64,000 nucleotides of DNA, taken from Geoalkalibacter ferrihydriticus DSM 17813 (GTDB lineage Bacteria > Desulfobacterota > Desulfuromonadia > Desulfuromonadales > Geoalkalibacteraceae). The notes under the pieces are model-generated. The model was not told the DNA's origin. It saw nothing but the letters and a program-made list of their open reading frames with translations, and searched no databases. The position numbers and the translations under genes were made by a program. Shown here in pieces: positions 2,631-64,000 of this stretch. The first letter of the stretch is position 1. Each line of letters begins with the position of its first letter. The stretch spans positions 190,955 to 254,954 of the forward strand of contig NZ_JWJD01000004.1 in NCBI RefSeq assembly GCF_000820505.1, read 5' to 3'.

Positions 2631-2656
2631 GCCGGCTCAAAAGTCTAGTGAGTGTA

Positions 2657-2685
2657 TTGACAAACTGAGCATTACGGACGATACT
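2657..2685 (+). promoter_or_regulatory. sigma70-type promoter for the riboswitch-cytochrome transcript
   Basis: TTGACA at 2657-2662 and GATACT at 2680-2685 are separated by 17 bases. Transcription would start near 2692, directly in front of the GEMM aptamer. Confidence 0.65.
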
Positions 2686-2700
2686 TCAGCCTATCCGTCT

Positions 2701-2789: not shown

Positions 2790-2820
2790 GCAGAAAGGGG
2801 CAACCCGGCTGTTTTTTTTT
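2772..2820 (+). terminator. intrinsic terminator of the GEMM riboswitch
   Basis: A 14-base perfect stem (2772-2785 with 2798-2811) is followed by nine T (2812-2820). The 5' arm is shared with the aptamer's last strand, which gives a terminator/anti-terminator switch about 215 bases before the cytochrome start. Confidence 0.85.
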
Positions 2821-3035
2821 GGTTCCGTTTCATAACCGGCGATTCGGACAATTGATCTTTCAGGGCAAAATTACACAAAGGAGGTGAACCCAAGCAGTTC
2901 GACCACACCCGAAAACCCATTTCTGCAATCAGTGTCACTGCCATTTTTAAGTTGTAACTGTCATTGGTCTATCTTTGCTGCTGTACCGTCTCATCAATGA
3001 ATGTCTCTGAACAAGGACACAAGGGAGTAAAGGGT

Positions 3036-4652
3036 ATGAAAAAAAACATTACTAAAGTTCTGGCTTTTGCCGCCGTCCTGGCCTTCAGCCTGGTCGCCAC
3101 CACCCAGGCAGCGGTACCGCCTCCGCCGGCCAACCAATTCGTCGGCTTTCCCGACACCGTCTTCGCCAATGTTTCAGAAGCCGACTGCCGCGCCTGCCAC
3201 GGCGCCACGCCGCCTGAAGGCGTACCGGTCGACACGACCTATCTGCCGGATCGCCACCACCTGCTGATCGGTACGGCGATCCCGCCCAACAGCGTCGTGC
3301 CCCATCCGGAATTCGGCACCTCCTACATGTGCTTCAGCTGTCACGGACTGACGATGACCGGCACGGATCCCGGCAACGAATTTGAATTCGACGAATTCCG
3401 CAATTGCTCCACCTGCCATACCGACGCCTCGCCTCACCACCTGACCAGCGCTGCCCAGATCGGCGACTGCCGCATTTGCCACGGCGCGGTGGTCGACAAC
3501 GGCCTGCTTCCGGAAAACCGCGAAGTCCGCAACGGCGTCGAAGTTCCCGTGTGGCTGCCCACCTACAATCCCAGCCTGATCACCCCTTGGCCGAGCCGCA
3601 AAAACGGCGACTCGGCCTCGGCGGGCAACTGCACCTTCTGCCACGCACCCAGCCCGCAGCAGGCGACGGGGTTGAATCGCGGATTTGCCATCGACCCGAT
3701 GAGCGGCGTCATGGTCTACAACAACGCCGACACGCATCATCTTCCCGGCTTTATGGGTGACAATGCGGACGCCAAATGCTCCTGGTGCCACCCCGGCGGC
3801 TCGCCTTTCCCGATCAATGCCATGAGCATCCGGACCTGCCAGAACTGCCACGGCATCCCCTCGCTGCACAACATTCAGTATGACAATACCGGCGACGGCA
3901 TCATGCCCGGCCAGATGGATCCCTGGTACGGCCATATCGGCAACAACCTCGACTGCATGGGTTGCCACGCCTCTTCCGCTTTCGGCGCCTCCGCCGCGGA
4001 CATCGGCAATACCGTACCGCAGATCAACAGCATGACCAGCTATGTCATCATCGAGGGCACGGAAGTCGATGTTGAACTGAGCGGTTTCGGCTTCATCAGC
4101 CGCACTTTTGCGGGCAATGAATACGTCGCGACAGTGGTCCTTACGGACAAATCCGGCACTACCTATGAGCTGGCGCCCAAGTCCGTTTCGCCCACCAGCA
4201 TCGAAGTGACCGTTCCTGCCTATCTGCCCGCCGCCACCTATCGCGTGGTGGCCCAGAAGGCCGACAAGGTTTCCAGGCCCGAGATTCTGGTCATCAAGCC
4301 CCTGGTGGCCATTGACAGCGCCGACATTCAAAACAACGGCGACATCGTCATTGCCGGTCAGGGCTTCGGCATTGAGCCCCCGCAGAACGTCCGCAACCTG
4401 GGCGTCGAAGTCGCAGGCGCCAAAGCTCAGGTGCTTTCCTGGAACGAGGACCGCATCGTCGTTTCCGCCGCCAACGCTCAGGCAGGTCAGACGGTTGAAG
4501 TTCTCTCCACCTTTGCCGTGTCCACACAGCTGACCGGCGAAGCTGCTCCTCCCGTTGTCGAGGAGCCTCCCGTTGTCGAGCCTCCCGCAGACAAAAACCG
4601 CGGCCGCAGCAAGGCCGACGAAAAGTCCAACAGCAGCAGAAGAGGGCGCTAA
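3036..4652 (+). CDS. secreted octaheme c-type cytochrome with C-terminal IPT/TIG-like domains
   Basis: A 538-residue exported electron-transfer protein. ATG 3036 is preferred over earlier in-frame codons because it gives a standard signal peptide (KKNITKVLAFAAVLAFSLV, then TQA) and follows AAGGGAG. Eight CxxCH motifs lie between residues about 50 and 310: CRACH, CFSCH, CSTCH, CRICH, CTFCH, CSWCH, CQNCH and CMGCH. Residues about 325-505 carry no heme motifs but have two repeated beta-rich segments (SGFGFISRTF and AGQGFGIEPP mark equivalent turns), typical of IPT/TIG folds. The end is Pro/Glu-rich, then basic. The protein is probably on the cell surface or in the periplasm, for extracellular electron transfer. 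It is controlled by the GEMM riboswitch upstream. Confidence 0.85.
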   Translation: MKKNITKVLAFAAVLAFSLVATTQAAVPPPPANQFVGFPDTVFANVSEADCRACHGATPPEGVPVDTTYLPDRHHLLIGTAIPPNSVVPHPEFGTSYMCFSCHGLTMTGTDPGNEFEFDEFRNCSTCHTDASPHHLTSAAQIGDCRICHGAVVDNGLLPENREVRNGVEVPVWLPTYNPSLITPWPSRKNGDSASAGNCTFCHAPSPQQATGLNRGFAIDPMSGVMVYNNADTHHLPGFMGDNADAKCSWCHPGGSPFPINAMSIRTCQNCHGIPSLHNIQYDNTGDGIMPGQMDPWYGHIGNNLDCMGCHASSAFGASAADIGNTVPQINSMTSYVIIEGTEVDVELSGFGFISRTFAGNEYVATVVLTDKSGTTYELAPKSVSPTSIEVTVPAYLPAATYRVVAQKADKVSRPEILVIKPLVAIDSADIQNNGDIVIAGQGFGIEPPQNVRNLGVEVAGAKAQVLSWNEDRIVVSAANAQAGQTVEVLSTFAVSTQLTGEAAPPVVEEPPVVEPPADKNRGRSKADEKSNSSRRGR

Positions 4653-4789: not shown

Positions 4790-6064
4790 ATGAAAATTTT
4801 TCCCTTGGCACTTTTTGTCCTGGGCTTGCTCGTTTTTTTTCCTGCCGCTCAGACCCAAGCCACGCAGACAAAGGAATATCTGGTCGGCTTTCACAGCCCT
4901 GCCCTGGCCGCTGAACAAGGCAAAGCACTCGGCAAGGATCGCCGCAGCAACCGCAGCATGCGCAGGCTGCCTATCCTCACCCTGGCCCTTGATGAAGCCG
5001 AGGCCGAGGCGTTGGGCCGCAACCCAGGGGTCGCCTATATCGAAGAAAACCGTTGGGTGCAGGCCATCGATCCGACCCTGGGAGCCGAGTATTCCAACAG
5101 CTGGGGAGTTACCCACATCGGCGGCATGAGTGTGCATGAGAAGGGCTATTTCGGCCAGGGCGTGCGTATTGCGGTTCTCGATACCGGCATCGACTACACG
5201 CATCCGGACCTGATGTTTCGCTATGCCGGCGGCTACAATTTCGTGTTCGACGATGCCGACCCCATGGATGATAGCTCCAGCAGTCACGGCACCCATACCG
5301 CCGGCATTATCGCCGCAGAGCTCAACGGCATCGGAGTGGTGGGGGTCGCGCCGCGTGCGCGTCTCTATGGCGTCAAGGTGCTGGACGGCGCGGGGTTCGG
5401 TACACTGGAGTGGCTGATTGCGGGTATCGACTGGGCCATAGACAACCAGATGGACATCATCAACCTGAGCCTCGCCTTCGATTTAGACTCCCCCGCCGTC
5501 CGCGACGCTTGTGATCGCGCCTTTGCCGCCGGAATCCTGCTGGTTGCCGCCGCCGGAAACACCAATGGCTCCGCCGCCCTGTATCCCGCCGCCTACGATT
5601 CGGTCATTGCGGTCAACGCCACCTCCGGCGACGATCAGCTCGCCGCTATCTCCGCCATCGATCCCCGCATCGAACTGGCGGCCCCCGGTGTTGATGTCGT
5701 GTCCACCGCGCGCGGCAATGAATACCTCTCCCACATCGGCACCTCGCAGGCCGCGCCGCATGTCACCGGTGTCGCCGCGCTGATTCTCGCCGCCGGCATC
5801 GAGGATGCCAACAACGATGGACGCCTGGCGGACGACGTGCGCCTGCGCTTGCAGCAGACCGCCGTGTCTTTGGGGGAAGCCGGTCGCGATTCTTTCTACG
5901 GATTTGGGCGGGTCGATGCCGTAGCCGCACTTGAACTTGCAACCGCTCCGCCCCCGCCCGCCCCCGTCGTCAAAGAAAAGAAGGAAAAAAGACTCAAGCG
6001 GGCGGAAATTATCCGGACCGTCCCCCCAGGCCCTGGAAAATCCCACCCGGCGCGCTCCCGCTGA
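4790..6064 (+). CDS. secreted subtilisin-like serine protease (S8 family)
   Basis: The 424-residue product has a signal peptide (FPLALFVLGLLVFFPAAQTQA) and an inhibitor-like propeptide (about residues 25-95, with EYLVGFH and VAYIEENRWVQA). The catalytic triad is visible: Asp in VLDTGIDYTHPDL (about 131), His in SHGTHTAGIIAA (about 167) and Ser in GTSQAAPHVTGVAALIL (about 317). The oxyanion Asn is in LVAAAGNTNGSA. The C-terminus after about residue 390 is Pro/Lys-rich, which may be a linker or cell-wall-facing tail. It probably degrades or processes extracellular protein. ACGGGAG lies 11 bases before the ATG. The gene stands alone between two terminators. Confidence 0.9.
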   Translation: MKIFPLALFVLGLLVFFPAAQTQATQTKEYLVGFHSPALAAEQGKALGKDRRSNRSMRRLPILTLALDEAEAEALGRNPGVAYIEENRWVQAIDPTLGAEYSNSWGVTHIGGMSVHEKGYFGQGVRIAVLDTGIDYTHPDLMFRYAGGYNFVFDDADPMDDSSSSHGTHTAGIIAAELNGIGVVGVAPRARLYGVKVLDGAGFGTLEWLIAGIDWAIDNQMDIINLSLAFDLDSPAVRDACDRAFAAGILLVAAAGNTNGSAALYPAAYDSVIAVNATSGDDQLAAISAIDPRIELAAPGVDVVSTARGNEYLSHIGTSQAAPHVTGVAALILAAGIEDANNDGRLADDVRLRLQQTAVSLGEAGRDSFYGFGRVDAVAALELATAPPPPAPVVKEKKEKRLKRAEIIRTVPPGPGKSHPARSR

Positions 6065-6111
6065 ACCCGCCTGCCGCCCTGGTGAGGCCGCACTTGCCTC
6101 GACGAAAAAAA

Positions 6112-6136
6112 GCCGCTCCTTCCGAGCGGCTTTTTT
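6112..6136 (+). terminator. intrinsic terminator after the protease gene
   Basis: GCCGCTC (6112-6118) pairs with GAGCGGC (6124-6130), followed by six T. The A-run before the stem means it could also work on the minus strand, for nikR. Confidence 0.85.
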
Positions 6137-6149
6137 CGTTTCAACAAAC

Positions 6150-6283
6150 GTAACTATTCAGCGGCAACGTCCGACGGTACCGCAGGGTGCGGCAGTTGAG
6201 TGCTGCGGCAAATGTTTGAGCCGCAGGTGATTTTTTGCCGCACGCGATGCCGCCGTACCCTGCGGTGCATGCTGAACAGTTAC
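6150..6283. mobile_element. 134-bp imperfect palindrome, MITE-like
   Basis: The ends GTAACTATTCAGC (6150-6162) and GCTGAACAGTTAC (6271-6283) are inverted repeats matching at 12 of 13 positions. Inside them, ACCGCAGGGTGCGGC and its near complement around GCCGTACCCTGCGGT continue the pairing. The middle has no open frame. A non-coding palindrome with defined terminal inverted repeats suggests a MITE or the remains of an insertion sequence. No parent transposase is in the window. Confidence 0.5.
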
Positions 6284-6440
6284 CTAACTTATTCAGTTGC
6301 AAGCAATGCTTGCGCGGCCGGCGCTGAATGCGAAACAATTTCTCTGCAAATTGACGTATTTCGTCACGGAACCCGCGGATATTGAGAGAGGCGAAAAACG
6401 CGAACTTTCTTCGCCGCGCCGTTGCGACGCAAGACAACCC

Positions 6441-6860
6441 TCAGAGCAACCCCTTGCCGGTGGTCGTTGTCACCAGCTTGCCGTGCTTGACGCCCTTGGT
6501 GCCGATGAGTTCGTCGGCCAGGCGCCGCACTTCGCCGACCCTGCCTTTGACCACCACCACCTCAAGACAGTGGTGGGTATCGAGGTGGACATGCAGAGCC
6601 GAGATAATGGCGTCATGATGGCTGTGCTGCTGCTCGGTGAGTTTGTCGGCGAGATCGCGGGTGTGATGATCGTAAACCAGGGTGACCGTGCCGACCGTTT
6701 CTTCATTTTCGTCGGCCCACTGCTGTTCGACCAGGGCGTTGCGAATCAGATCGCGAATGGCTTCAGAACGATTGCTGTAGCCCTTGTCTGCAATCAGGTC
6801 GTCAAAGCGCTGCAACAACCGATCGTCGATGGATATACCGAAGCGGATGGTTTCGGACAT
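6441..6860 (-). CDS. nikR: nickel-responsive transcriptional regulator NikR
   Basis: A 139-residue ribbon-helix-helix repressor. The N-terminal RHH domain is about residues 1-50 ([20 protein letters not shown], then [11 protein letters not shown]). The C-terminal ACT-like nickel-binding domain follows. Its ligands match the known NikR site: His in [11 protein letters not shown], and the H-x-H and Cys of [18 protein letters not shown]. The start was set at ATG 6860 because of the GGAGG site just upstream and because the N-terminus then matches the family. Nickel-loaded NikR normally represses nickel uptake genes. A candidate operator lies in front of the ECF nickel transporter at 10092-10118, about 3.2 kb away. 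Confidence 0.93.
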
Positions 6861-7056
6861 GGCGAACCTCCAGGTGGGGATAAACGAACGAATTTTTCTA
6901 GCACGCCCGCCGCCAGGGGTCAAGGGCGCAAGATCCATGGAGAAATTCCTTCCCGTGGGTCATTCGCTCAGGCCTTATCCACAGGCTGTCCACCGCAGGA
7001 TCACAACATCTGGTGCCCCGAACACAACTTCTAATCTACATCTTGGGTTTTTTGCC

Positions 7057-7084
7057 TTGACTCACAGCGACTCTGTGCTAAATT
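7057..7084 (+). promoter_or_regulatory. candidate promoter for nrdD
   Basis: TTGACT (7057-7062) and TAAATT (7079-7084) are 16 bases apart, about 50 bases before the nrdD start. GAGGGAG precedes the ATG as ribosome site. I looked for a clear NrdR box and did not find one. Confidence 0.45.
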
Positions 7085-7142
7085 CAGCCAGTTGCCAAAG
7101 CGCCGCGGGGCGCCGTGAGTCCAACAGAGGGAGTTTGTAACT

Positions 7143-9131
7143 ATGTTGAAATTTATCCGCAAGCGCGATGGGCGCCTGGTACCCTTCGAGGAGAAAAAAA
7201 TCGGAGAGGCCATCCAGAAGGCGGTGCGCGCGGTGGGCGGCAGCGACATGAATCGCGCATCCGGCATCGCGCGCCAGGTGGTGGGCATCCTGGAAGTCAT
7301 CTACAAGGATGAGCGCATTCCCACCGTCGAAAACGTGCAGGATCTGGTTGAGAAGATTCTCATCGAAAACGGTCACGCCCAGGTCGCCAAGGCCTATATT
7401 CTTTACCGAAACCAGCACGAGAGCCTGCGTCGCACACAGGAATTCATGCGTGAGTCCATCGAGTCCATCGACTCCTATCTCGCCCAGGAGGACTGGCGGG
7501 TCAACGAAAACGCCAACATGGGCTACTCCCTGCAGGGGCTCAACAATCATATCGCCAGCAACATCACCAGCAACTACTGGCTCAACAAAATCTACCCCGA
7601 GTACATCGCCGCGCCGCATCGCAATGCCGATCTACACCTTCACGACCTCGGCATGCTCTCGGTTTATTGCTGCGGCTGGGACCTCAAAGAGGTGCTGCTC
7701 AAAGGCTTCACCGGCGCCTACGGCAAGGTGCAGAGCGGCCCGCCCAAACACTTCCGCACCGCCCTCGGGCAGGTGGTCAACTTTTTCTACACCCTGCAGG
7801 GCGAGGCCGCCGGCGCCCAGGCCTTCGCCAATTTCGACACCCTTCTGGCACCCTTCATTCGCTACGACGGCCTCGGCTTTACCGAGGTCAAGCAGGCCAT
7901 GCAGGAGTTCATCTTCAACATGAACGTGCCGACCCGGGTCGGTTTCCAGACGCCCTTTACCAATGTCACCATGGACATGACTCCGCCTTCGACCCTGGCC
8001 GGCGAAGGGGTAATTATCGGCGGACGGCTGACTGAAGCCACCTACGGCGAATTCCAAGAGGAGATGGACCTCTTCAATCGCGCCTTCTGCGAAGTGATGA
8101 TGGCGGGCGACGCCTCGGGGCGCATCTTCTCTTTTCCCATCCCGACCTACAATCTGACACGCGAACTGGACTGGGAGAGCACCCGCTTCCAGCCCATATG
8201 GGAGATGACCGCCAAGTACGGCATTCCCTATTTCAGCAACTTCATCAATTCGGACATGAGTCCCGAGGACGCGCGCTCCATGTGCTGCCGCCTACGTCTC
8301 GACAACCGCGAGTTGCGGCGGCGCGGCGGCGGACTGTTCGGCAGCAACCCGTTGACCGGCTCCATCGGCGTGGTGACCCTCAACCTGCCGCGCGCCGCCT
8401 ATCTGGCTGATTCCAAGGAAGCCTTTTTCGCGCGCATTGGCGAATTGATGGACATCGCGCGCGACTCTCTGGAGATCAAGCGCAAGCAGCTTGAGCGCTT
8501 CACCGAGCACGGCCTCTACCCTTACAGCCGTTTTTACCTCGACGGCATCAAAGAGCGCTCGGGAAATTTTTGGGACAATCACTTCTCCACCATCGGCCTG
8601 ATCGGCATGAACGAAGCCTGTCTCAACCTTCTCGGCCGCGACATCACGACCCCGGCCGGAAATGCCCTGGCGGTGGAAACCCTGGAATTCATGCGCACCA
8701 AGCTGGAAGCCTACCAGGAAGAAACCGGGCACCTGTACAACCTGGAAGCCACCCCCGGCGAAGGCACCAGCTTTCGTCTGGCGCGCGCCGATCATGAGCG
8801 CTACCCCGAAATTCTGGCCGCAGGCCATGAGCAACCCTACTATACCAACAGCACCCAACTGCCGGTGGGCAGCACCGATGATATCTTCCAGGCCCTGCGT
8901 CATCAGGACCAGTTGCAGACCCGCTACACCGGCGGCACGGTATTTCACGGCTTCCTCGGCGAGCGCCTCGACGACTGGCAAAGCGCACGCCTGCTGGCGC
9001 GGCGCATCGCCGAGAATTTCCACCTGCCCTACTTCACCATCACACCGACCTTCACCATCTGCCCCGAACATGGCTACATTGCCGGCGAGCACTTCGAATG
9101 CCCGCACTCTGGGCATGGCCAGGCGGCCTGA
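7143..9131 (+). CDS. nrdD: anaerobic ribonucleoside-triphosphate reductase (class III), catalytic part without the glycyl-radical loop
   Basis: The 662-residue protein reduces ribonucleotides to deoxyribonucleotides without oxygen. An ATP-cone regulatory domain fills about residues 1-90 (KFIRKRDGRLVPFEEKKIGEA). The ten-stranded barrel follows, with ASNITSNYWLNKIYPEYIAA, DLHLHDLG and PTRVGFQTPFTN. The sequence stops soon after TICPEHGYIAGEHFECPHSG, where other NrdD proteins continue with a CxxC zinc site and the RVxGY radical loop. That loop is encoded by the next small ORF, in the same frame after TGA and 24 bases. The enzyme is therefore in two pieces. The gene is the first of three with the radical-domain gene and nrdG. 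Confidence 0.93.
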   Translation: MLKFIRKRDGRLVPFEEKKIGEAIQKAVRAVGGSDMNRASGIARQVVGILEVIYKDERIPTVENVQDLVEKILIENGHAQVAKAYILYRNQHESLRRTQEFMRESIESIDSYLAQEDWRVNENANMGYSLQGLNNHIASNITSNYWLNKIYPEYIAAPHRNADLHLHDLGMLSVYCCGWDLKEVLLKGFTGAYGKVQSGPPKHFRTALGQVVNFFYTLQGEAAGAQAFANFDTLLAPFIRYDGLGFTEVKQAMQEFIFNMNVPTRVGFQTPFTNVTMDMTPPSTLAGEGVIIGGRLTEATYGEFQEEMDLFNRAFCEVMMAGDASGRIFSFPIPTYNLTRELDWESTRFQPIWEMTAKYGIPYFSNFINSDMSPEDARSMCCRLRLDNRELRRRGGGLFGSNPLTGSIGVVTLNLPRAAYLADSKEAFFARIGELMDIARDSLEIKRKQLERFTEHGLYPYSRFYLDGIKERSGNFWDNHFSTIGLIGMNEACLNLLGRDITTPAGNALAVETLEFMRTKLEAYQEETGHLYNLEATPGEGTSFRLARADHERYPEILAAGHEQPYYTNSTQLPVGSTDDIFQALRHQDQLQTRYTGGTVFHGFLGERLDDWQSARLLARRIAENFHLPYFTITPTFTICPEHGYIAGEHFECPHSGHGQAA

Positions 9132-9305: not shown

Positions 9306-10004
9306 ATGGGCATCAAAGGATTCCAGGGAACCAGCCTGCTTGATTTCCCCGGCCGCATCGCCTCCCTGGTCTTTTTCGGCGGGTGCAATCTCACCTGCCC
9401 CTTCTGCCACAATCCATCCCTGGTGCTGACGCCGGAGGATCACCCCGATTACCCCCCGCAGGTGCTGCTGGGGGAACTCGCGGAGCGCCGTGCTTTCATA
9501 GACGGCGCCGTGGTCTCCGGCGGCGAGCCGACCCTCGACCCTGAACTGCCGGGGTTTCTGCGCCAGATCAAGGCCCTTGGCCTGCTGGTCAAGCTCGACA
9601 CCAACGGTCTGGCGCCGGATATGCTCGCAAGCCTGATTGATGAAGAACTTCTCGATTATGTGGCTCTCGATGTCAAGACCGCCCCAAGCCGTTACGGCGA
9701 GCTGCATCGCGCCCCCGTCGACCTCGACCTGCTGCCGCGCAGTGTGCAGTTGCTTAAATCCAGCGCGCTTGATTACGAATTCCGCACCACCTGCGTTCCC
9801 GGCTTCGTCGAGGAGAGTGACATTCGCGCTCTTGGCGAGCTCTTGACGGGGGGCCGGCGCTGGGTCCTGCAACAGTTCGTCCCCCAGCACTCGCTTGCAC
9901 TGCCTCTGCGGAAAATCACCTCACATCCCCCCGCCAAGCTGCATCAAATGGCGGCCATCGCCCGCGACCATGTTGCCGAGGTGAAACTGCGCGGCATCGA
10001 ATAA
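9306..10004 (+). CDS. nrdG: anaerobic ribonucleotide reductase activating protein (radical SAM)
   Basis: A 232-residue radical SAM activase that makes the glycyl radical on NrdD using S-adenosylmethionine. The cluster motif CNLTCPFCHNP (CxxxCxxC) is near residue 29, in the typical context LVFFGGCNLTCPFCHNPSLV. The GGEPTLD motif near residue 76 is the SAM-binding glycine-rich strand, and LKVDTNG-like VKLDTNG follows near 100. Length fits the longer NrdG subgroup (TIGR02495-like). It starts 3 bases after the radical-domain ORF, so the three genes form one unit. Confidence 0.92.
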   Translation: MGIKGFQGTSLLDFPGRIASLVFFGGCNLTCPFCHNPSLVLTPEDHPDYPPQVLLGELAERRAFIDGAVVSGGEPTLDPELPGFLRQIKALGLLVKLDTNGLAPDMLASLIDEELLDYVALDVKTAPSRYGELHRAPVDLDLLPRSVQLLKSSALDYEFRTTCVPGFVEESDIRALGELLTGGRRWVLQQFVPQHSLALPLRKITSHPPAKLHQMAAIARDHVAEVKLRGIE

Positions 10005-50932: not shown

Positions 50933-53131
50933 ATGGCCGAATATTATGCGCACTCAACGGCAAACCAAGACAAATCGGACTGGCAGACCCTTCCCGATCA
51001 TTTGGCAAATGTCGCCAGGCTCGCCGAAAAATTTGCGGATGTATTCAACGCGGGTGAATGGGGGCGCTGTGCCGGTTTGCTGCATGACGCCGGCAAGGCA
51101 ACGGACGCTTTTACCGCAAGGCTGGAGGGAAACACGGCCCGCGTCGATCACTCAACCTTCGGTGCGCGCCTGGCGAGAGAGCGTCTGGGACGCCTCGGAC
51201 TGCTTCTGGCGTATGTGATCGTCGGCCATCACGGCGGGTTGACCAATGGCGGCAATCAGGAAGGCGAGCTTCATTTTCGCCTGAAACACGCCAAGGTGCC
51301 GCCGGACGTCGCGCTGCTTACCGATTTTGACCTGCCCAAGAGGCTAGCCCCACCTTTCAAACTGCCCGTTGATCGCGCTGGATTCAGCCTGGCGTTTTTC
51401 ACCCGGATGATTTTCTCCTGTCTGGTAGATGCCGACTTTCTCGATACCGAAGCCTTTTGCGACCCTGATAAAGCCCAGCTTCGCCCAGAGCACGACAGCG
51501 GCACTGATTTCCGCAGTCTGCAACAGCGATTCACTTCCTTTCTTCAAGAAAAAGCACATACCGCCAAACCCTCCCCCGTCAATGCCCTGCGCCAAAGCAT
51601 TCTCGCCCAGTGCCGGGAAAATGCCCTGCTACCCCAAGGATTTTTTTCGCTGACAGTTCCCACCGGTGGGGGAAAAACCTTCTCGTCTCTGGCCTTCGCC
51701 CTGGACCACGCGTTAGCCCACGGCCTGCGGCGCATTATTTACGCGATTCCCTTCACCTCCATCATTGAACAGAATGCCAGGGAGTTCCAGGCGGCCATCG
51801 GGGCAGATTGCGTCCTTGAGCATCACTGCAATTACAAGGAGAGCGATGAGCACGAGAACGATGCCTACAATCGCAGACGCGGGCTGGCCACCGAGAACTG
51901 GGATGCCCCCCTCGTCGTCACGACCAACGTCCAATTTTTCGAGTCGTTGTTCAACAACAAAACCTCGCGGTGCCGCAAACTGCACAACATTGCCGGCAGC
52001 GTCATCATCCTCGACGAAGCCCAGGCGATCCCCACCGAATATCTGGAGGCCTGCCTCGCCGCCCTGCGCGAGCTGGTGGAACGCTACACGTGCACGGTTG
52101 TCCTCTGCACCGCGACCCAGCCGGCCCTGGACGACAAAAGCACTCTGCGCACGGCGTTGCCACACGTCCAGGAGATCATTGACGATCCGCTGCATCTCTA
52201 TCGGAGTTTGCAGCGCACCGAGGTCCAATTTATCGGCAAAGTTTGCGATGACGAACTCGCCGAGCGCCTCGCGGATGAGAGACAGGTTCTGTGCATCGTT
52301 TCCACCAAGGCACATGCCCGCACACTTTACGAGAAAATTAGGCAGGCGGCAGGAGAAGATGAGCGGTTATTCCATTTGTCGACCAACATGTACCCCATCC
52401 ATCGGCGGCAAGTGCTGAATGAAATTCGCGCCCAGCTCAAGGTCAACATGCCCTGCCGGGTGATTTCGACGTCCCTGGTCGAGGCGGGCGTCGACCTTGA
52501 CTTCCCGGTGGTGTATCGGGCCATGGCCGGGCTGGATTCCATCGCCCAGGCGGCAGGTCGTTGCAACCGCGAAGGGCTGCTGCCCGAAAAAGGCAAAGTG
52601 TTTGTCTTCGAAGCAGAGCAGCCCCCGCGCATGCCCTGGATCAAGCGTTGCGCCGCCCGCGCCGCGGAAACTCTGCGCACCCTGCCCCAGGCCGACCCTT
52701 TGGGGCTTGAAACCATGCGCCGATATTTCGAATTGCTTTACGATGTGGAGGACTTGGACAAGAAGCAGATCCTGCCATTGCTCAATCCCAAATTGAGCAC
52801 CGATCTGATCTGGCCGTTCCAGGAAGCGGGCCAGGCCTTCCGCTTCATCGAGGAGGAAACCATCGGCGTGATCATCCCCATTGAGGCGCAGGCGCAAGGC
52901 CTGGTGCAGGAGTTGCGGTACACCCAATACCCGCGCGCCACGCTTAGAAAACTTCAGCAGTACACGGTTGGGGTGCGTTCCAGAGACTTTGCGGCTCTGG
53001 ATGCCGCCGGCGCGCTGGAAATGATTCACGGCGAATTTCCGCTGTTGTGCAACGAAGCTACATACCGCGCTGCGGTTGGATTGTGCGTTGATGAGGGTGA
53101 AGTCTGGAATCCGGAGAATTTGTGCATATAA
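50933..53131 (+). CDS. cas3: CRISPR-associated helicase-nuclease Cas3 (type I-C)
   Basis: The 732-residue effector unwinds and degrades target DNA after Cascade binding. The N-terminal HD nuclease has His23 in TLPDHLANVARL and His51-Asp52 in AGLLHDAGKATDAF, with VGHHGG near residue 103. The SF2 helicase has Walker A VPTGGGKTFSSLAFAL (about 243), VILDEAQAIPTEYLE (DEAQ box, about 360) and VLCTATQPALDDKS. In the C-terminal part it has STSLVEAGVDLDFPVV and QAAGRCNREG. GGGAGG precedes ATG 50933. HD-helicase order is standard. Confidence 0.95.
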   Translation: MAEYYAHSTANQDKSDWQTLPDHLANVARLAEKFADVFNAGEWGRCAGLLHDAGKATDAFTARLEGNTARVDHSTFGARLARERLGRLGLLLAYVIVGHHGGLTNGGNQEGELHFRLKHAKVPPDVALLTDFDLPKRLAPPFKLPVDRAGFSLAFFTRMIFSCLVDADFLDTEAFCDPDKAQLRPEHDSGTDFRSLQQRFTSFLQEKAHTAKPSPVNALRQSILAQCRENALLPQGFFSLTVPTGGGKTFSSLAFALDHALAHGLRRIIYAIPFTSIIEQNAREFQAAIGADCVLEHHCNYKESDEHENDAYNRRRGLATENWDAPLVVTTNVQFFESLFNNKTSRCRKLHNIAGSVIILDEAQAIPTEYLEACLAALRELVERYTCTVVLCTATQPALDDKSTLRTALPHVQEIIDDPLHLYRSLQRTEVQFIGKVCDDELAERLADERQVLCIVSTKAHARTLYEKIRQAAGEDERLFHLSTNMYPIHRRQVLNEIRAQLKVNMPCRVISTSLVEAGVDLDFPVVYRAMAGLDSIAQAAGRCNREGLLPEKGKVFVFEAEQPPRMPWIKRCAARAAETLRTLPQADPLGLETMRRYFELLYDVEDLDKKQILPLLNPKLSTDLIWPFQEAGQAFRFIEEETIGVIIPIEAQAQGLVQELRYTQYPRATLRKLQQYTVGVRSRDFAALDAAGALEMIHGEFPLLCNEATYRAAVGLCVDEGEVWNPENLCI

Positions 53132-53167
53132 CCTTGTGAACTCTTGGCAAGAGGGAAAGGAGCAGCT

Positions 53168-53833
53168 ATGGGGTATGGCGTCAAGTTAAGAGTCTGGGGG
53201 AATTACGCCTGTTTTACGCGACCGGAGATGAAGGTGGAACGCGTCTCCTACGACGTGATGACCCCTTCGGCTGCGCGGGGCATCCTGGAGGCGATTCACT
53301 GGAAGCCGGCGATCCGCTGGGTCGTGGATCGCATTCATGTATTGCAGCCCATCAAATTCGACAATGTACGGCGTAACGAAATCAGTTCGAAAATCCCCAA
53401 ACCCAATCCGACCACGGCCATGCGTGACGGCAAGCGCCTCTATTTTCTGGTGGATGACGGCGACAACCGCCAGCAGCGCGCCTCGACACTTCTGCGCGAT
53501 GTGGAATATGTCATCGAGGCACATTTCGAACTGACCGACAAGGCCGGCTTTGACGACAACGAAGGAAAGCATCTCGACATCTTCAACCGAAGAGCCGCGC
53601 GTGGCCAATTTTTTCATCAGCCCTGCCTTGGTTGCCGCGAATTCCCAGCCTATTTTGAGTTGCTCGAAGGGGACATTCCCGCATCGCCCTATGTCGGGCA
53701 GTCCAAGGAATTGGGCTACATGCTGCTCGACATGGATTTTGACAACGACATGACCCCCCTGTTTTTCCGCGCGACCATGGAGGATGGCATCATCCATGCC
53801 CCATCGCCGCTTTCCCCGGAGGTGCGGACATGA
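53168..53833 (+). CDS. cas5: Cas5 (Cas5d/c), crRNA-processing subunit of type I-C Cascade
   Basis: The 221-residue RAMP protein opens [20 protein letters not shown]. In type I-C, which lacks Cas6, Cas5 cuts the repeat RNA and holds the crRNA 5' handle. The segments [20 protein letters not shown] and [21 protein letters not shown] are Cas5d-like. GGAAAGGAG lies before ATG 53168. Its last four bases overlap cas8c (ATGA). Confidence 0.93.
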
Positions 53834-55581
53834 TTCTGCAAGCCTTGAACGGCTATTATGAGCGCATGGTCGAAGATCCGAATTCGGGGATGCCGCCTTT
53901 TGGGACCAGCATTGAGAACATCTCCTTTGCGTTGGTACTGGCAGCGGACGGCAATTTACAGAACATCGAAGATCTACGCGAATCCGAAGGCGGCAAGTTA
54001 CGGGCACGGAAAATCCCCGTACCAGCATCGGTGACGCGCACTTCTGGCGTTAAGCCTAATTTTCTGTGGGACAAAGCGAGCTACCTCTGCGGCGCAGATG
54101 CAGAGGGGGCAACCGAAAAAAATCAAGAGCGATTCGCGGCTTTCAAAGAATTTCTTCAGATCGTCGGGGCTGAAATTAACGATCCGGGATTTTTAGCTGT
54201 CATCAAATTCCTGCAAGGTTGGGATTGCGCACAAGCCGAGGAAATCGTCGGTAAATTTGCGGCTTGGGAAGATGTTTGTCATGCCAATCTGGTGTTTCGT
54301 TTGGATGGCGCCCCCGGATTTATTCACAATCGCGCGCCCGTACAGAAATTCTGGCTCCGATTCAACCAGGATAGGGACAGCGCCGAACTGGTTCAGTGCT
54401 TGATTTCCGGTGAAACAGATGCACCTTTGGCCCGCGTCCATACCCCCATCAAGGGTGTTCGCGGCGGACAGACATCGGGAGGGTACATTGTATCCTTTAA
54501 TAAATCCGCCTTCGTTTCTTACGATCAGACCAAGGCCTCCGTCGCTGAAAACTCGGCATTCGCTTACACGACCGCGCTGAATGTCCTTCTGGCAGGGAAA
54601 AGTCGACAAAATGTGCATATCGGCGATACCACCCTAGTCTTCTGGGCGCAACGTCCTACCCCGGCAGAGGATTTCCTTGCCGACCTGATCGAGCCTTCAG
54701 CCGGATCCACTGATGCCCCAGATATTGAGGACGATCAGCAAACCACCGGAAAAATCCGCAGCTTGCTTCAGGCAATTCGCGATGGGCGGCGGGCAACAGA
54801 CATCATTCCGGACCTTGACGAATCCGTGCAATTCTATGTGCTCGGCTTGGCACCCAATGCCGCGCGGCTGTCTATCCGCTTTTGGGAGGCAAACAGTGTG
54901 GGCGTTTTTCTGGACCGCATCGGCAGGCATTTTCAACAACTGGCGTTGGTTCGCCAATACGAAAGCGATCCCGAATTCCCCCCTCTGTGGCGACTGCTCT
55001 GCCAGACGGCACCTTTGGGAAAAAACGAAAACGTCTCACCGGTTCTCGCAGGCGCCCTGGCCAAAGCCATGTTGACCGGCACCCGCTATCCGCAAAATCT
55101 TCTTTCCGCCGTCCTAGGGCGCATTCGCACCGAACATCAGGTGAGCTATTTTCGCGCCGCGCTTCTTAAGGCTTTTCTCATTCGCAATCATCAAATGGAG
55201 GTGCCCGTGTCGCTCGATCCCCAAAAAAAAGACTTACCTTATTTACTGGGCCGCTTATTTGCCGTTTTGGAAAAAGCCCAGGAGGAGGCCGTCCCCGGTA
55301 CCAACGCCACCATCAAGGACCGCTATCTCGCCTCGGCATCGGCAACCCCGGGCCAGGTTTTTCACATGCTGCTGAAAAATGCGGCCAACCACATCGCCAA
55401 GTTACGCAAAGACCCGGAAAAAAGAGGCAGGGCACACAATTTCGAAATCATGACGCAAGACATCATGGCCGAGATCGTTGAGTTCCCCAGAACTCTGGCT
55501 GCCATTGAGCAGGGCCAATTCATGATCGGCTACTACCATCAGCGCAAAAACTTTTTCACCAAAAAAAATCAGGAGGGCTGA
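53830..55581 (+). CDS. cas8c: Cas8c (Csd1), large subunit of type I-C Cascade
   Basis: The 583-residue subunit recognises the PAM and, through an internal start, can also supply a Cas11-like small subunit. The start [20 protein letters not shown] and [20 protein letters not shown] is the Csd1 signature. [19 protein letters not shown] and [20 protein letters not shown]-like segments ([20 protein letters not shown]) follow, then [14 protein letters not shown] and a helical C-terminus. No separate cas11 gene is present, as usual for I-C. Confidence 0.93.
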
Positions 55582-55584
55582 CCC

Positions 55585-56445
55585 ATGACCGCTATCACCA
55601 ATCGTTATGAATTCGTACTGCTTTTCGATGTGGAAAACGGCAATCCTAACGGCGATCCCGACGCAGGCAACATGCCGCGCATCGATCCCGAAACGGGCCA
55701 TGGACTGGTGACCGATGTCTGTCTGAAGCGCAAAATCCGCAACCACGTGGCCCTGGCCAAAGAAGGCGCGGAAGGATTCAATATTTATGTGCAGGAAAAG
55801 GCCGTGCTCAATCAAACCAATGAACTGGCTTACAAAGCTTATGAATTGAAGCCCGAAACGAAAAAGCTCCCCAAAAAACTTGCGGATGCACAAAAAGTAA
55901 CCGGCTGGATGTGCGCCAACTTTTTCGACATCCGCAGCTTCGGCGCTGTCATGACCACCGAGGTCAATTGCGGACAGGTGCGCGGGCCGGTGCAATTGGC
56001 TTTTGCCAAAAGCGTTGAACCTATCATTCCGCAGGAAATCAGTATCACCCGTATGGCGGTCACCAACGAAAGAGACTTGGAAAAAGAACGCACTATGGGC
56101 CGCAAGCATATCGTCCCCTATGGGCTTTATGTCGCCCAGGGCTTTGTGTCGGCGCCTCTGGCAGAAAAGACCGGTTTCAGCGAGGATGACCTGGGCTTGC
56201 TGTGGGACGCGCTGGTCAACATGTTCGAGCACGACCGTTCAGCGGCTCGCGGCGTAATGAGCAGTCGTAAGCTCTATGTCTTCAAGCATAAAGACAAATT
56301 GGGTAATGCCCCGGCGCATAAGTTGTTCGACTTGGTGGAAATTGCGCGCGCTCCCGGTTCGCAGGGGCCGGCGCGGTCCTTTAAGGACTTTTCCGTAAAT
56401 GTAGGTACTGCGCCGACAGGTATCGAAATTATTGAAAAATTGTAG
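55585..56445 (+). CDS. cas7: Cas7 (Csd2), backbone subunit of type I-C Cascade
   Basis: The 286-residue RAMP protein coats the crRNA spacer in multiple copies. Its start, FVLLFDVENGNPNGDPDAGN, with TDVCLKRKIRNHV, is the Csd2/Csh2 hallmark. FFDIRSFGAVMTTEVNCGQV and MGRKHIVPYGLYVAQGFVS are also typical. It starts three bases after cas8c. A hairpin directly after its stop may protect the message end and raise its relative amount. Confidence 0.95.
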   Translation: MTAITNRYEFVLLFDVENGNPNGDPDAGNMPRIDPETGHGLVTDVCLKRKIRNHVALAKEGAEGFNIYVQEKAVLNQTNELAYKAYELKPETKKLPKKLADAQKVTGWMCANFFDIRSFGAVMTTEVNCGQVRGPVQLAFAKSVEPIIPQEISITRMAVTNERDLEKERTMGRKHIVPYGLYVAQGFVSAPLAEKTGFSEDDLGLLWDALVNMFEHDRSAARGVMSSRKLYVFKHKDKLGNAPAHKLFDLVEIARAPGSQGPARSFKDFSVNVGTAPTGIEIIEKL

Positions 56446-56450
56446 TTGAA

Positions 56451-56482
56451 AGCAAGGGGGTACAACCCTTACCCCACTTGCT
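56451..56482 (+). other. mRNA hairpin directly after cas7
   Basis: AGCAAGGGGGTA (56451-56462) pairs with TACCCC-A-CTTGCT (56470-56482), 12 pairs with one bulged A and a seven-base loop. There is no T-run, so it is more like an RNA-processing or stabilising stem than a terminator. Confidence 0.5.
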
Positions 56483-56510
56483 AGCAAAAGCGGGAGGGGG
56501 AAAATCACCT

Positions 56511-57377
56511 ATGGATAAAAATCTGGAAAAACGTTTCCGTGAGCGGGCAGTTACGCTGGGCAATTGCGGAGATCCGGCAGGATTGGCGGAACTTATCGAT
56601 TTGACACGTTTACCCGTTGCCAATGTGCGGCGCTTGGCGGCATCGGCCATCGGAAAGCTGGCCGGTTTGGCCGATGGCAGAGACGCCGTTGCAGCTTTGC
56701 AGCCGCTATTGCAGGATGCTTTTCCGCAGGTGCGCCAATATGCGGCAAAAGCCCTGGGTGCTTACGGCATCCAGGCCAAATGCGCCTTGGTCGATCTTCG
56801 CGATATGGCCATCAGCCCCGTTGAAAAGGACTACAACAACACCTGCGCAAAGCTGGCCATCGAACTCATCGAGGAGGCGACCCGCATCGAAGAGAGGAAA
56901 GCCGAGCATTGCTGCCAGCGCTGCGGGGTCAAACTTGAAGCCGATGAGTTCACCCGCAGCAAAAAAGCTTTTCAGCGCCCGTTCTGCAATTATTGCTTCG
57001 ATGAGGTCTTTATCGAACGACGTAATTTTGAAACCAAGGTGCAATTGCAGAAAAACATTCGTGCCAAGGACGGCACCTGGGTGCAATCGGACGGCGAGCG
57101 CTTGATTTGTGAGATATTGAACACCGAGAAAATCCACTACCGCTACGATGAGCGTTTCCGCATACTTGACGGATATGCCATCCGCCCCGATTTCTATCTG
57201 CCCGAGTTTGACGTCTATATCGAGTATTGGGGAATGGACACCGCCGACTACAAAATCGGCATGCTCAAAAAACAGCAGCTTTACCAGCAGCAGGGCAAAA
57301 GGCTTCTTTCCCTCTACCCCGATGACAAACCCAGAATCCGACATATGTTGCTGGAAAAACTCGCCAAATATAAATAA
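56511..57377 (+). CDS. HEAT-repeat / zinc-finger / PD-(D/E)XK-like nuclease protein inside the cas operon
   Basis: A 288-residue protein without a name known to me. Residues about 10-125 are alpha-helical HEAT-like repeats (VANVRRLAASAIGKLAGL and FPQVRQYAAKALGAYG). Residues 134-162 hold a likely zinc site: C135, C138, C159 and C162, in CCQRCGV and FCNYCFDE. Residues about 190-288 resemble a PD-(D/E)XK nuclease: Glu197 in SDGERLICEIL, Asp227 in RPDFYLPEFD, Glu238 in VYIEYWG and Lys253/254 in the next helix. GGGAGGGGG lies upstream of ATG 56511. It sits between cas7 and cas4 on the same strand. A role in interference or spacer acquisition is inferred from position only. Confidence 0.75.
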   Translation: MDKNLEKRFRERAVTLGNCGDPAGLAELIDLTRLPVANVRRLAASAIGKLAGLADGRDAVAALQPLLQDAFPQVRQYAAKALGAYGIQAKCALVDLRDMAISPVEKDYNNTCAKLAIELIEEATRIEERKAEHCCQRCGVKLEADEFTRSKKAFQRPFCNYCFDEVFIERRNFETKVQLQKNIRAKDGTWVQSDGERLICEILNTEKIHYRYDERFRILDGYAIRPDFYLPEFDVYIEYWGMDTADYKIGMLKKQQLYQQQGKRLLSLYPDDKPRIRHMLLEKLAKYK

Positions 57378-57435
57378 CTCGCTACGCCTGCGCTGCGCAT
57401 TGCAGGTACGGCAAAAGCAATCCGGAGAACCTTCG

Positions 57436-58113
57436 ATGTATGCTGAATCCGACTACGTTATGCTCTCGGCTTTGCAGCATTATCTTTACTGCCCACGTCA
57501 GTGTGCCCTGATTCACATTGAACAAACCTGGCAGGAAAACCGCTACACCGTTGAAGGACGCATTTTGCATGAGCGGGTCGACAGCCGAGAGAAAGAGATG
57601 AAAGGGCGTGTACGGATTGTACGCACCCTTCCCGTCCGCTCAGCGCGGCATGGTTTGAGTGGGCAGGCCGATGTGGTGGAGTTCCATGAGGACGGCAGCG
57701 TCTATCCCGTCGAGTACAAGCGAGGCCGGCCGAAAAGCGACCGCTGCGACGAAGTGCAACTTTGCGCTCAAGCCCTATGCCTCGAAGAAATGCTGGATAA
57801 AAAAATCGAAAGCGGGGCCTTATTTTACGGGCAGAATAAACGCCGGAGCGCTGTTGAATTTGATGTCGACCTAAGGCGGCTGACCGAAGAAACAGTTGAG
57901 CGGGTTCATGATCTTTTTCGCACCGGAGTTACGCCGAAAGCGGTCTACTCCAAAAAGTGCGATCAGTGTTCACTTATTGCCGTATGCCTGCCGAAAAGCT
58001 GCACATCCGGACGATCGGTCAGAAAATATCTGGTAGGGATGCTCAGGGAGACGAACCATGAGAAAGATGCTCAACACGCTGTATGTGACGACGCAAGGGG
58101 CCTATCTGAATAA
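57436..58113 (+). CDS. cas4: Cas4 nuclease for spacer acquisition
   Basis: The 225-residue RecB-type iron-sulfur nuclease trims prespacers and selects the PAM side. A first cysteine is in YLYCPRQCALIHIE (about residue 20). The nuclease core has LHERVDSRE, GQADVVEFHEDGSVYPVEYK (Asp and the E-x-K) and later QLCAQALCLEEM. The remaining cluster cysteines are in KKCDQCSLIAVCLPKSC. ATG 57436 follows GGAGAA. The C-terminus runs 56 bases into cas1, longer than usual. Confidence 0.93.
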   Translation: MYAESDYVMLSALQHYLYCPRQCALIHIEQTWQENRYTVEGRILHERVDSREKEMKGRVRIVRTLPVRSARHGLSGQADVVEFHEDGSVYPVEYKRGRPKSDRCDEVQLCAQALCLEEMLDKKIESGALFYGQNKRRSAVEFDVDLRRLTEETVERVHDLFRTGVTPKAVYSKKCDQCSLIAVCLPKSCTSGRSVRKYLVGMLRETNHEKDAQHAVCDDARGLSE

Positions 58114-59089
58114 GGAGGGAGAAACGGTCGTCGTCAACATCGAGCGCGAAACCAAGCTACGCTTGCCGATTCATACGCTCAGTTCCATTGTCTGTTTCGG
58201 CCAGGTGACATGCAGCCCCTTTCTGCTTGGGCATTGCGCTGAAAAGGATGTTACGGTCAGCTTCCTGACAGGTTACGGGCGGTTTTTAGCCAGGGTTCAG
58301 GGGCCGGTGGCAGGCAACGTACTTCTGCGTCGAGAGCAGTATCGCCAAGCCGACGACCTAGTGGCTTCGGCGCGTTTGGCACGCTTGTTTGTGCTGGGCA
58401 AGGTGACCAACTGCCGCACGGTTATGAGCCGGGCTCAGCGGGATCATGGGGAGAAAATCAACTCGCTGGACATTCCGAAAAAGGTGGGCTTATTTGCAAA
58501 GGTCGCTCGCAACCTTTTACTGGAAGATTCTCTTGATGATATCCGCGGTATTGAGGGCAGAGCAGCTAACGACTACTTCGGACTCTTCAATGATCTAATC
58601 GTGGCACAGAAGGACGACTTCGTCTTTGCCGGGCGAAACCGTAGGCCCCCTCTGGACCGGGTGAATTGCCTGCTTTCATTTCTCTATTCGCTGCTCTATC
58701 ACGATGCGCGCTCAGCTCTTGAAACGGTGGGACTCGATCCGGCTGTTGGCTTTTTGCACCGCGATAGGCCTGGCCGACTGAGTCTGGCCTTGGATCTGAT
58801 GGAGGAATTTCGGCCGGTAATGGCGGATCGCCTGGCGCTTTCATTGATTAACCTTGGTCAGGTGCGCAAAAAAGGGTTCCGGACCATGGAATCCGGAGCC
58901 GTGGTGATGGATGACGACACCCGAAAGGTTCTGCTCATGGAATACCAGAAGCGCAAACAGGTCGAAATCGAACATCCTTTTATCAAGGAGAAAATTCCGC
59001 TCGGGATGCTGATGTTTGCCCAAGCACAATTGCTCAGTCGCTATCTGCGCGGAGATCTGGACGAGTACCCTCCGTTTATCTGGCGGTGA
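58058..59089 (+). CDS. cas1: Cas1 integrase (type I-C)
   Basis: The 343-residue metal-dependent integrase inserts spacers at the leader end. It starts MRKMLNTLYVTTQGAYLNKE, typical of I-C Cas1. The catalytic Glu is in DIRGIEGRAANDYFGLF (about residue 172). The His and acidic residues lie in GLDPAVGFLHRDRPGRLSLA and LDLMEEFRPVMADR. GGGAG precedes ATG 58058, which lies inside the cas4 frame. Confidence 0.96.
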   Translation: MRKMLNTLYVTTQGAYLNKEGETVVVNIERETKLRLPIHTLSSIVCFGQVTCSPFLLGHCAEKDVTVSFLTGYGRFLARVQGPVAGNVLLRREQYRQADDLVASARLARLFVLGKVTNCRTVMSRAQRDHGEKINSLDIPKKVGLFAKVARNLLLEDSLDDIRGIEGRAANDYFGLFNDLIVAQKDDFVFAGRNRRPPLDRVNCLLSFLYSLLYHDARSALETVGLDPAVGFLHRDRPGRLSLALDLMEEFRPVMADRLALSLINLGQVRKKGFRTMESGAVVMDDDTRKVLLMEYQKRKQVEIEHPFIKEKIPLGMLMFAQAQLLSRYLRGDLDEYPPFIWR

Positions 59090-59093
59090 CGAC

Positions 59094-59384
59094 ATGATGG
59101 TGCTTGTCAGTTACGATGTGGCAACCTCTGATCGCGCCGGCGCCAAACGCTTGCGCAAGTTGGCAAAAATTTGCACCAATCACGGGCAACGCGTCCAGTA
59201 CTCGGTCTTTGAATGCCTTGTAGATCCAGCACAATGGGTGGCGATGCGCCAGCAATTGATCAATGTCATCGACGAATCCCAGGATAGCTTGCGATTTTAT
59301 TTTCTAGGGGCGGGATGGCGAAGGAAGATTGAACACATAGGCGCAAAGGAGGCTATCGACCAGGAAGGACCTTTAATCCTTTAG
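59094..59384 (+). CDS. cas2: Cas2 (type I-C)
   Basis: The 96-residue ferredoxin-fold protein bridges two Cas1 dimers in the acquisition complex. VLVSYDVATSDRAGAKRLRK has the conserved Asp, followed by HGQRVQYSVFECLVDPAQW and SLRFYFLGAGWRRKIEHIG. ATG 59094 and 59097 are both possible. It is the last cas gene; the leader starts right after the stop. Confidence 0.95.
   Translation: MMVLVSYDVATSDRAGAKRLRKLAKICTNHGQRVQYSVFECLVDPAQWVAMRQQLINVIDESQDSLRFYFLGAGWRRKIEHIGAKEAIDQEGPLIL

Positions 59385-59548: not shown

Positions 59549-64000
<4,452 letters not shown>

Follow-up and report, generated by a model that had tools for sequence, protein, structure and literature searches.

A gene that sits in a cas operon is often regarded as a CRISPR accessory for no other reason than its position. 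The type I-C operon of Geoalkalibacter ferrihydriticus DSM 17813 carries such a gene between cas7 and cas4, here termed HCP after its parts (HEAT repeats, Cys4 zinc site, PD-(D/E)XK nuclease), and the question is whether it serves the CRISPR system or is carried by it as a passenger. The window, that is the whole stretch of 64,000 nucleotides analyzed, holds a complete I-C set in the order cas3, cas5c, cas8c, cas7c, HCP, cas4c, cas1c and cas2c, based on Pfam, PADLOC and NCBIfam matches, and the operon is followed by a CRISPR array of 67 repeats (pattern count, at most four mismatches). An earlier, sequence-only reading had placed the open reading frame inside an I-C operon between cas7 and cas4, which was confirmed; the following features were assigned.

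50933..55581, + strand: cas3, cas5c and cas8c (Pfam, PADLOC, NCBIfam)
55585..56445, + strand: cas7c, upstream border of the HCP junction (TIGR02589, 408.5 bits)
56511..57377, + strand: HCP (open reading frame and translation)
57436..58098, + strand: cas4c, downstream border of the HCP junction (PDLC01773 Cas4c, 300.1 bits)
58058..59384, + strand: cas1c and cas2c (Pfam, PADLOC, NCBIfam)
59549..63941 (end approximate), + strand: CRISPR array with repeats of the GTCGCCCCC...GGGGGCGTGGATTGAAAC type (pattern count)

HCP begins with ATG, encodes 288 amino acids and has, as the same reading stated, a ribosome site of its own, located 10 nt 5' of the start codon. Its parts are as follows.

56492..56500, + strand: purine-rich ribosome-binding sequence GGGAGGGGG (from the sequence)
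56517..56900, + strand: HEAT-repeat domain, residues 3-130 (Pfam HEAT_2 and alphaRep fold matches)
56913..56996, + strand: four-cysteine zinc site C135, C138, C159 and C162, residues 135-162 (conservation)
57090..57374, + strand: nuclease core, residues 194-288, with E196, D227, E238 and K254 (conservation and model)

The proposed domain order of HEAT repeats, four-cysteine site and nuclease was upheld. Pfam HEAT_2 was matched at 3.1e-9, over the Pfam cut-off, and fold comparison of the HCP model with alphaRep HEAT proteins gave Z up to 18.6; Zn_ribbon_2 (0.0051) was under the Pfam cut-off. Conservation was assessed in an alignment of 78 rows, comprising the window and 77 of 80 further loci (L049, L094 and L099 were omitted as incomplete). 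The four cysteines were invariant in 78/78 rows, as were E196, E238, K254 and K263, and D227 was present in 77. Among the catalytic residues proposed before, D227, E238 and K254 thus stood and Glu197 did not, since residue 197 is an arginine and the catalytic glutamate is E196. Nor is the gene unnamed, as had been supposed: PADLOC model PDLC01150 'HEAT_CxxC_PDDEXK' matched residues 1-288 of 288 with 609.6 bits, and the window HCP is a member of this family, which probably goes back to a survey of genes linked to CRISPR (Shmakov et al. 2018). No NCBIfam model was matched over its cut-off, and no published function for the family was found among open-licence papers.

A fold search with the whole protein was taken up by HEAT proteins, and the absence of nuclease matches from it carries no weight. 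The kinship of the nuclease part was investigated with a structure model of residues 128-288, built with the 78 rows (pLDDT 84, pTM 0.65). The best PDB match was the catalytic domain of the homing endonuclease I-Bth0305I (3r3p; Foldseek E 6.7e-3, prob 1.00; Z 9.4, rmsd 2.7 over 88 residues), no Foldseek match of this model lying below 0.001. Further fold matches were Vsr (Z 8.7), NGO0050 (7.9), VRR_NUC (7.4) and TnsA (7.3). Two unrelated mitoribosome chains reached Z 9.1-9.2, so that the lead of I-Bth0305I is not clear-cut on Z alone. A search of the PDB by sequence with the nuclease part gave no match. Two PHROG families annotated as homing endonuclease were matched at E<=0.01, phrog_9084 by 76/78 members (best 1.9e-7) and phrog_3339 by 52/78, as were 'HNH endonuclease' by 77/78 and 'Holliday junction resolvase' by 78/78, counts that are not independent since the 78 members are interrelated; the Vsr Pfam model was weakly matched in 7/78 (best 0.007). 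The nuclease core anticipated by the sequence-only reading is therefore present in the model, and the predicted fold, with the Glu, Asp and Glu/Lys residues in place, puts HCP in the PD-(D/E)XK / Vsr-like nuclease superfamily. In the model K254 sits on a later helix and not in an ExK strand motif, and the invariant histidine of the EDxHD motif (taken from the family name) was not found among the positions at least 93% conserved in the 78 rows.

The first explanation to be weighed is that HCP is a facultative type I CRISPR accessory, which would trim prespacers with Cas4-Cas1-Cas2 or help in target degradation, its stand-alone copies acting in trans. The distribution within the order bears on this in both directions. 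Full-length HCP was found in 7/136 genomes of the order, 39 others having matches at E<=0.001 that were only partial; the 7/277 carriers in the class were these same seven, and an even sample of 395 genomes of the phylum contained four carriers, three of them among the seven. Window-type Cas7 was identified in 23/136 order genomes and all seven carriers fell within these 23 (Fisher p 1.7e-6), as an accessory would predict, but HCP was missing in the remaining 16. A constant or core I-C component was thereby ruled out, only 7/23 genomes with this Cas7 carrying HCP and 4/24 cas7/cas4 junctions abutting directly, and the earlier statement that the gene lies outside the core set was borne out.

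The gap from cas7 to cas4 was examined in 24 cas7 loci (L195-L218, from 23 genomes, one with two). It contained HCP in seven, measured -1 to 8 nt in four and 44 nt in one, and was 237 nt in L218. Other junctions carried other genes: a DUF559 gene in L203, 23S_rRNA_IVP genes in L210 and, just below the cut-off, L209 (L215 was alike by eye), a Bro-N gene running off the contig in L214 (L204 and L208 alike by eye), an HTH gene in L213 and, by eye, a RhuM-like fragment in L198 with no Pfam match at 0.001. The junctions of L202 and L211 were interrupted by contig ends. Further cargo adjoined HCP in other loci, namely Bro-N and RhuM-Fic genes in L035, ORF6N in L106 and a nucleotidyltransferase in L072. 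Since optional, unrelated genes alternate at this place, the cas7/cas4 junction is a lodging site and HCP one of several lodgers, which speaks against an accessory role.

Three loci hold what look like recombination scars in the sequence. In L051 a Bro-N gene stops at residue 126 of 282 directly before HCP, and no significant match to its remainder was found in the locus. In L074 HCP is flanked by a 5' fragment of cas4 on its upstream side and by an intact cas4 on its downstream side. In L088 direct repeats of 85 bp (8916-9000 and 9895-9977) lie before the starts of both HCP and cas3, which would fit a duplication of the leader together with the gene. Separately, L035 may hold a mosaic operon at 5654-7961, its best Cas5 segment being 86% and its Cas8c 37% identical to those of the window.

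The search for relatives covered 84,980 species, each represented by a single genome. Of 161 found, the best 80 were analyzed, a set biased towards the window HCP. Based on record titles, the sources were Desulfuromonas-type and other deltaproteobacterial bacteria, together with members of the PVC group (Lentisphaerae, Kiritimatiellae, Pontiellaceae, Verrucomicrobia, Chlamydiae). Among these best 80 of 161, 33 lay in type I cas operons, 45 elsewhere and two were assigned to neither; with I-C queries alone the numbers were 27, 51 and two, and neighbour family scans with reading of open reading frames moved six more (L046, L073, L076, L078, L081 and L088) into the linked class. The class of 45 may include loci whose cas genes lie further out than the nearest neighbours, and that of 33 includes L083 with cas4 at 5.6 kb and L113 counted on a short Cas4 match.

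The 33 linked copies belonged to subtypes I-C, I-B-like, I-E and I-G and were often immediately 5' of cas4; recurrence at the cas7/cas4 junction in several phyla, which the sequence-only reading had held to favor a CRISPR-linked role, was found. In 20/33 the cas4 match started within 150 nt 3' of HCP, and in L047, L052, L056 and L058 the HCP stop shares an ATGA with a start that reads into cas4 (frame read by eye). In I-E loci HCP lies between putative cse1 and cse2, identified by sequence reading (L046 and L076, the latter linked through clusters in common with L046), and in I-G loci between cas56g and cas3g (L073, L081). The cas genes of L078 are Cas3b and then a putative Cas4, again identified by reading, and in L088 HCP stands just before cas3 (45% tblastn match to cas3). 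This enrichment over several subtypes, the nearness to cas4 and the listing of the family in PADLOC speak for an accessory.

The 45 copies outside recognized cas operons argue against it. They adjoined polA (L040, L042 and L097, and by sequence L049), recJ, carB, trpA, a ClpB-like gene, lplA, a gene for an SNF2/PLD protein and others. In L040, L042 and L097 the start of HCP falls between 1 nt inside polA and 5 nt behind it, and L094 has an orthologous polA (84-87% amino acid identity) without HCP behind it. Cas1 was detected in 14/26 genomes with unlinked or unassigned copies and not detected in 12/26, a weak piece of evidence as many of these genomes are metagenome-assembled and at least two of the 12 (G665, G672) have a cas gene beside another HCP copy. 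The sequence-only reading had named scattered homologues with no cas association as the finding that would speak against it; the homologues are indeed scattered, but with 33/80 linked to cas genes only half of that picture was seen.

The neighbours polA, recJ and the SNF2/PLD gene, together with the fold match to Vsr, suggest a second explanation, namely that HCP is an independent nuclease serving the host in anti-phage defence or Vsr-like DNA repair, which moves on its own and is frequently kept in defence loci. Relatives of its nuclease domain occur in the PADLOC candidates PDC-S69 and PDC-S68, consistent with such a role, and domain relatives in plasmid UvrD-helicase-domain proteins, described below, may be added. 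Against a host-serving nuclease, a PADLOC scan of 99 nearest-neighbour proteins, from loci first called unlinked or neither, revealed no fixed partner gene: Cas3, Cas56g and a PolA model were what recurred among the matches listed (25 of 133 families). Several copies are, moreover, truncated or split, and 21 genomes had one to eight HCP matches each, several of them fragments.

Beyond chromosomes, no relative was found in viral contigs searched with one HCP protein, nor in a phage collection; a second query (A1) gave at least 51 distant partial matches in viral contigs, at no more than 46% identity among the matches listed. On plasmids, three distant, partial matches were observed between the HCP nuclease domain and UvrD-helicase-domain proteins of Vibrio and haloarchaeal origin (NZ_CP045340, NZ_CP010886, NZ_CP087722).

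The mode of inheritance was examined by comparison with RecA, using one HCP per genome; 30 genomes were searched and 29 compared, as one fragmentary RecA was dropped. Where HCP identity was at least 0.80, RecA identity was lower in 60/64 genome pairs; many copies were 80-90% identical between genomes whose RecA proteins were 64-80% identical, and L086 and L108 showed 0.90 for HCP against 0.70 for RecA. The four exceptions (L048/L051, L087/L092, L111/L112 and L090/L101) were close pairs in which RecA was more conserved than HCP, and HCP is thus not simply the slower protein. Distances of HCP and RecA were correlated overall (r 0.37) and in one clade of 20 rows (0.46), 0/3000 permutations being as high in either case, and outside that clade (0.20, p 0.028), which indicates that inheritance is partly by lineage. 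From these sequence comparisons the spread of HCP was largely horizontal. On a quick tree, cas linkage underwent at least 15 changes by parsimony, nine of them forced by the starred branches alone, for which support is SH-aLRT only. Eight same-genome pairs of HCP were 51-80% identical, suggesting that the copies were mostly acquired separately; recent transposition within a genome was rejected as no near-identical copies were present.

In 21 cas operons the distances of HCP correlated with those of Cas1 at r 0.12 (Mantel p 0.15), Cas4 at 0.21 (p 0.04) and Cas7 at 0.36 (p 0.016), against reference values of 0.93 for Cas7-Cas5 and 0.63 for Cas1-Cas4; in a wider set of 26 loci the value was 0.42 for HCP-Cas1 and 0.93 for Cas1-Cas4. 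HCP therefore does not appear to be co-inherited with the cas genes in the way of a core Cas protein. The idea that it travels with the adaptation module was set aside, since in the 21-locus set Cas1 and Cas4 correlate and HCP does not. A partnership with Cas4 in prespacer processing, one of the functions proposed from the sequence, did not hold as the main explanation in view of the 16/23 genomes with the same Cas7 and no HCP, the 45/80 copies outside cas operons, the carriers without detected Cas1 (some of them incomplete) and the low correlation with Cas1. We regard a facultative accessory role as rather unlikely.

Both the accessory and the host-serving explanation draw on selection. In 13 hand-picked close pairs with dS of 0.47-1.46, the dN/dS of HCP was 0.05-0.14 and was low in both halves of the gene; cas-linked and unlinked copies alike show constraint on the protein. 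Such values are lower than would be expected if the gene were purely selfish, and they are the main reason why our confidence in the interpretation preferred below is modest; such strong purifying selection leaves open a benefit to the host. With no fixed partner gene among the neighbours listed, and with the damaged copies and the end signals described next set against it, an independent nuclease maintained for the host was judged unlikely.

Many copies of HCP are bordered by signals of their own. A hairpin of about 37 nt, termed Y, was identified in the 5' flank of 19 loci, where it ends 0-27 nt before the HCP ATG; L057 has a second, downstream copy and in L078 it is downstream only. In an alignment of 21 copies, 95.2% of cells were paired and 23 cells were changed on both sides, and the covariation score was 0.415 (slid versions at most 0.079). 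For these three measures 0/500 shuffles were as high, and two of five measures were unremarkable (pairs changed on both sides, 11/500 shuffles; further pair types, 255/500); the structure was chosen from the same sequences that were tested, which favors the covariation result. A covariance model run over 83 sources (1.13 Mb) gave 24 matches at E<=0.016. Each lay beside HCP; 21 were training rows and three were new (L084, L088 and L100, the last 165 nt away). In 21 whole genomes, 15 matches at E<0.01 were found in 14 genomes, all at HCP copies, 14 being training rows and L084 new; the first look of this search scored 150 of 457-3139 candidates per genome. In the leaders of L048, L053, L056, L058 and L060, a half-element 5' of hairpin Y could, as seen by eye, pair with parts of Y in the interleaved order A-B-A'-B', which would be a pseudoknot if formed in RNA.

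The window genome gave no match to the covariance model of hairpin Y. Two other elements border its HCP.

56451..56482, + strand: 5' leader hairpin AGCAAGGGGG...CCCCACTTGCT between cas7 and HCP, distinct from hairpin Y (fold of 56446-56540)
57375..57407, + strand: 3' element from the HCP stop codon, a decayed copy of the palindrome TGACTT...GTCA of close relatives (alignment with L002, L003, L035 and L037-L039)

The leader fold (56446-56540) had a z of -2.50, with 4/200 shuffles equally good, compared with -4.4 to +0.7 for nine other HCP leaders. The 3' copy folds weakly (z -1.08), and the R1 model found no match in the window; in close relatives of the window HCP a palindrome likewise begins at the stop codon, most clearly in L035, L038 and L039. 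By eye, a palindrome of the GGGGTACAA-TTGTACCCC type was observed after cas7 and before the Bro-N genes in L204, L206, L208 and L214, and similar ones seem to be present inside the Bro-N coding sequence; the window leader hairpin may be a relative of it.

The terminal palindromes are best developed in the clade of 20 rows (starred on the tree), where inverted palindromes scoring at least 24 were found at the two ends in 13/20 loci, against 0/20 and 0/18 for inverted controls from shifted flanks. At the same score the other 57 loci gave five inverted and six direct matches (controls, 1/214 comparisons), and a stricter first flank cut gave four inverted and five direct matches in 77 loci with none in shuffles. 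A pattern search for the clade palindrome, whose reversed control pattern had two matches, found it in 13/20 genomes, in nine of them at HCP only; it also occurs in arrays and on other contigs in G676 and G677 and at two further sites in G680, and in G663 every copy found lies away from HCP. In 5/20 genomes just two copies were found, one + and one -, each at an end of HCP. A weight matrix from one clade's palindrome, applied to 59 other loci, showed a modest excess near HCP at scores of at least 11 (11 seen, 1.9 expected, with 87 elsewhere). In two related Lentisphaerae, arrays of the palindrome that forms the HCP ends in its clade, mostly at 41-bp spacing, were observed around HCP (L111, 8480-8820 and 9917-10090; L112, 9886-10070 and 11690-11866; G677 contig C226). 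Dispersed REP-like repeats were rejected as a general account because of the nine of 13 palindrome genomes in which the palindrome is at HCP only.

These ends raise a third explanation, in which a minimal cut-and-paste element has the terminal palindromes as its ends and HCP as its transposase-like gene. The inverted pairs in 13/20 loci and the five genomes with solely two opposed copies would fit, as would TnsA among the fold matches and the finding that no adjacent gene family is common to two loci of this clade. The inverted arrangement was, however, seen in just 5/57 other loci, no clear target-site duplication was found by eye at HCP loci, same-genome pairs are far from identical, and dS values of 0.5-1.5 between close members suggest that the placements are old. 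A cut-and-paste element is accordingly the least probable of the explanations, and a very improbable one.

HCP is probably a mobile passenger and not a core Cas protein. For the more specific reading, that it is a horizontally mobile, free-standing endonuclease gene working like a free-standing homing endonuclease, we see a chance just short of even. It is favored by the Vsr/I-Bth0305I-like domain, the intact neighbours, the optional presence, the horizontal spread and the gene-specific end palindromes; an optional gene between conserved neighbours, with empty junctions also on record, was found at cas7/cas4 and at the 3' end of polA, compared between species and not between alleles. The protein would bind and cut DNA in or close to junctions that lack the gene, cas7/cas4 among them, and HCP would be inserted there when the break is repaired from a copy that has it. 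The HEAT and zinc parts could supply DNA binding and target choice, and a 5' hairpin might keep translation of HCP low, sparing its neighbours. In the window HCP would then be a passenger of the I-C operon and not a working Cas part, which is near to the suggestion in the sequence-only reading of an independent gene carried in the operon. More tentatively, the family may form an unrecognized class of chromosomal homing genes (HEAT, Cys4, Vsr-like nuclease), spread between distant phyla, many copies with their own palindromic ends or leader hairpin, that repeatedly invades type I CRISPR operons, chiefly at cas7/cas4.

Several observations weaken the homing interpretation. The enrichment in type I cas operons, often 5' of cas4 and with stop/start overlaps, could mean a function there; the sites outside cas operons differ too much to be a single, fixed target of homing; none of the eight same-genome pairs shows a recent jump; the match to I-Bth0305I is moderate and the EDxHD motif was not found; and the 3' palindrome of the window is decayed, with no hairpin Y match in its genome. 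HCP looks like an accessory by position, yet has the spread, optional presence and gene-specific end signals of a passenger. If it is a homing gene, selfish nucleases with an architecture new to homing enzymes have spread through CRISPR operons of several subtypes in Desulfuromonas-type and PVC chromosomes, and others may readily be sought at the cas7/cas4 junction. If it is an accessory, it is a portable nuclease common to several type I subtypes.

Among known systems, the PADLOC-DB entry PDLC01150 consists of a name and a model, without function, mobility, hairpins or range. The Vsr mismatch endonuclease is like HCP in fold and differs in its flanking domains. RAYT elements encode a HUH transposase and are associated with short palindromes. 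The resemblance of REP/RAYT elements to HCP lies in short palindromes around a nuclease-type gene, with 41-bp arrays in two HCP genomes, but the palindrome is found at HCP only in 9/13 genomes and HCP is no HUH transposase. The recent same-genome duplicates of an insertion sequence were not seen, and inverted ends are largely a trait of the one clade.

The closest likeness is to homing endonucleases. I-Bth0305I, of the EDxHD family, is the best structural match of the nuclease domain, and enzymes of its type have, according to PMC3943268, a catalytic domain tethered to extra DNA-binding parts. HCP differs in its HEAT array and Cys4 site, has no invariant histidine and is chromosomal, its cleavage being only predicted. 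The free-standing homing endonuclease genes of T4 lie intergenically between conserved genes, with hairpins near the ribosome-binding site or start codon and co-conversion of flanks (PMC2988022; see also PMC6083498 and PMC3943268). The mobE and seg genes of T4-like phages belong to the HNH and GIY-YIG classes and to phage genomes, whereas HCP has no close phage or viral relative among the matches listed. What they share with HCP, going by PMC2988022, is an optional gene between conserved neighbours and possible co-conversion scars. In part of the HCP family a hairpin near the start codon that may act as RNA is also present (Y, 19 loci), the window copy having another leader hairpin instead.
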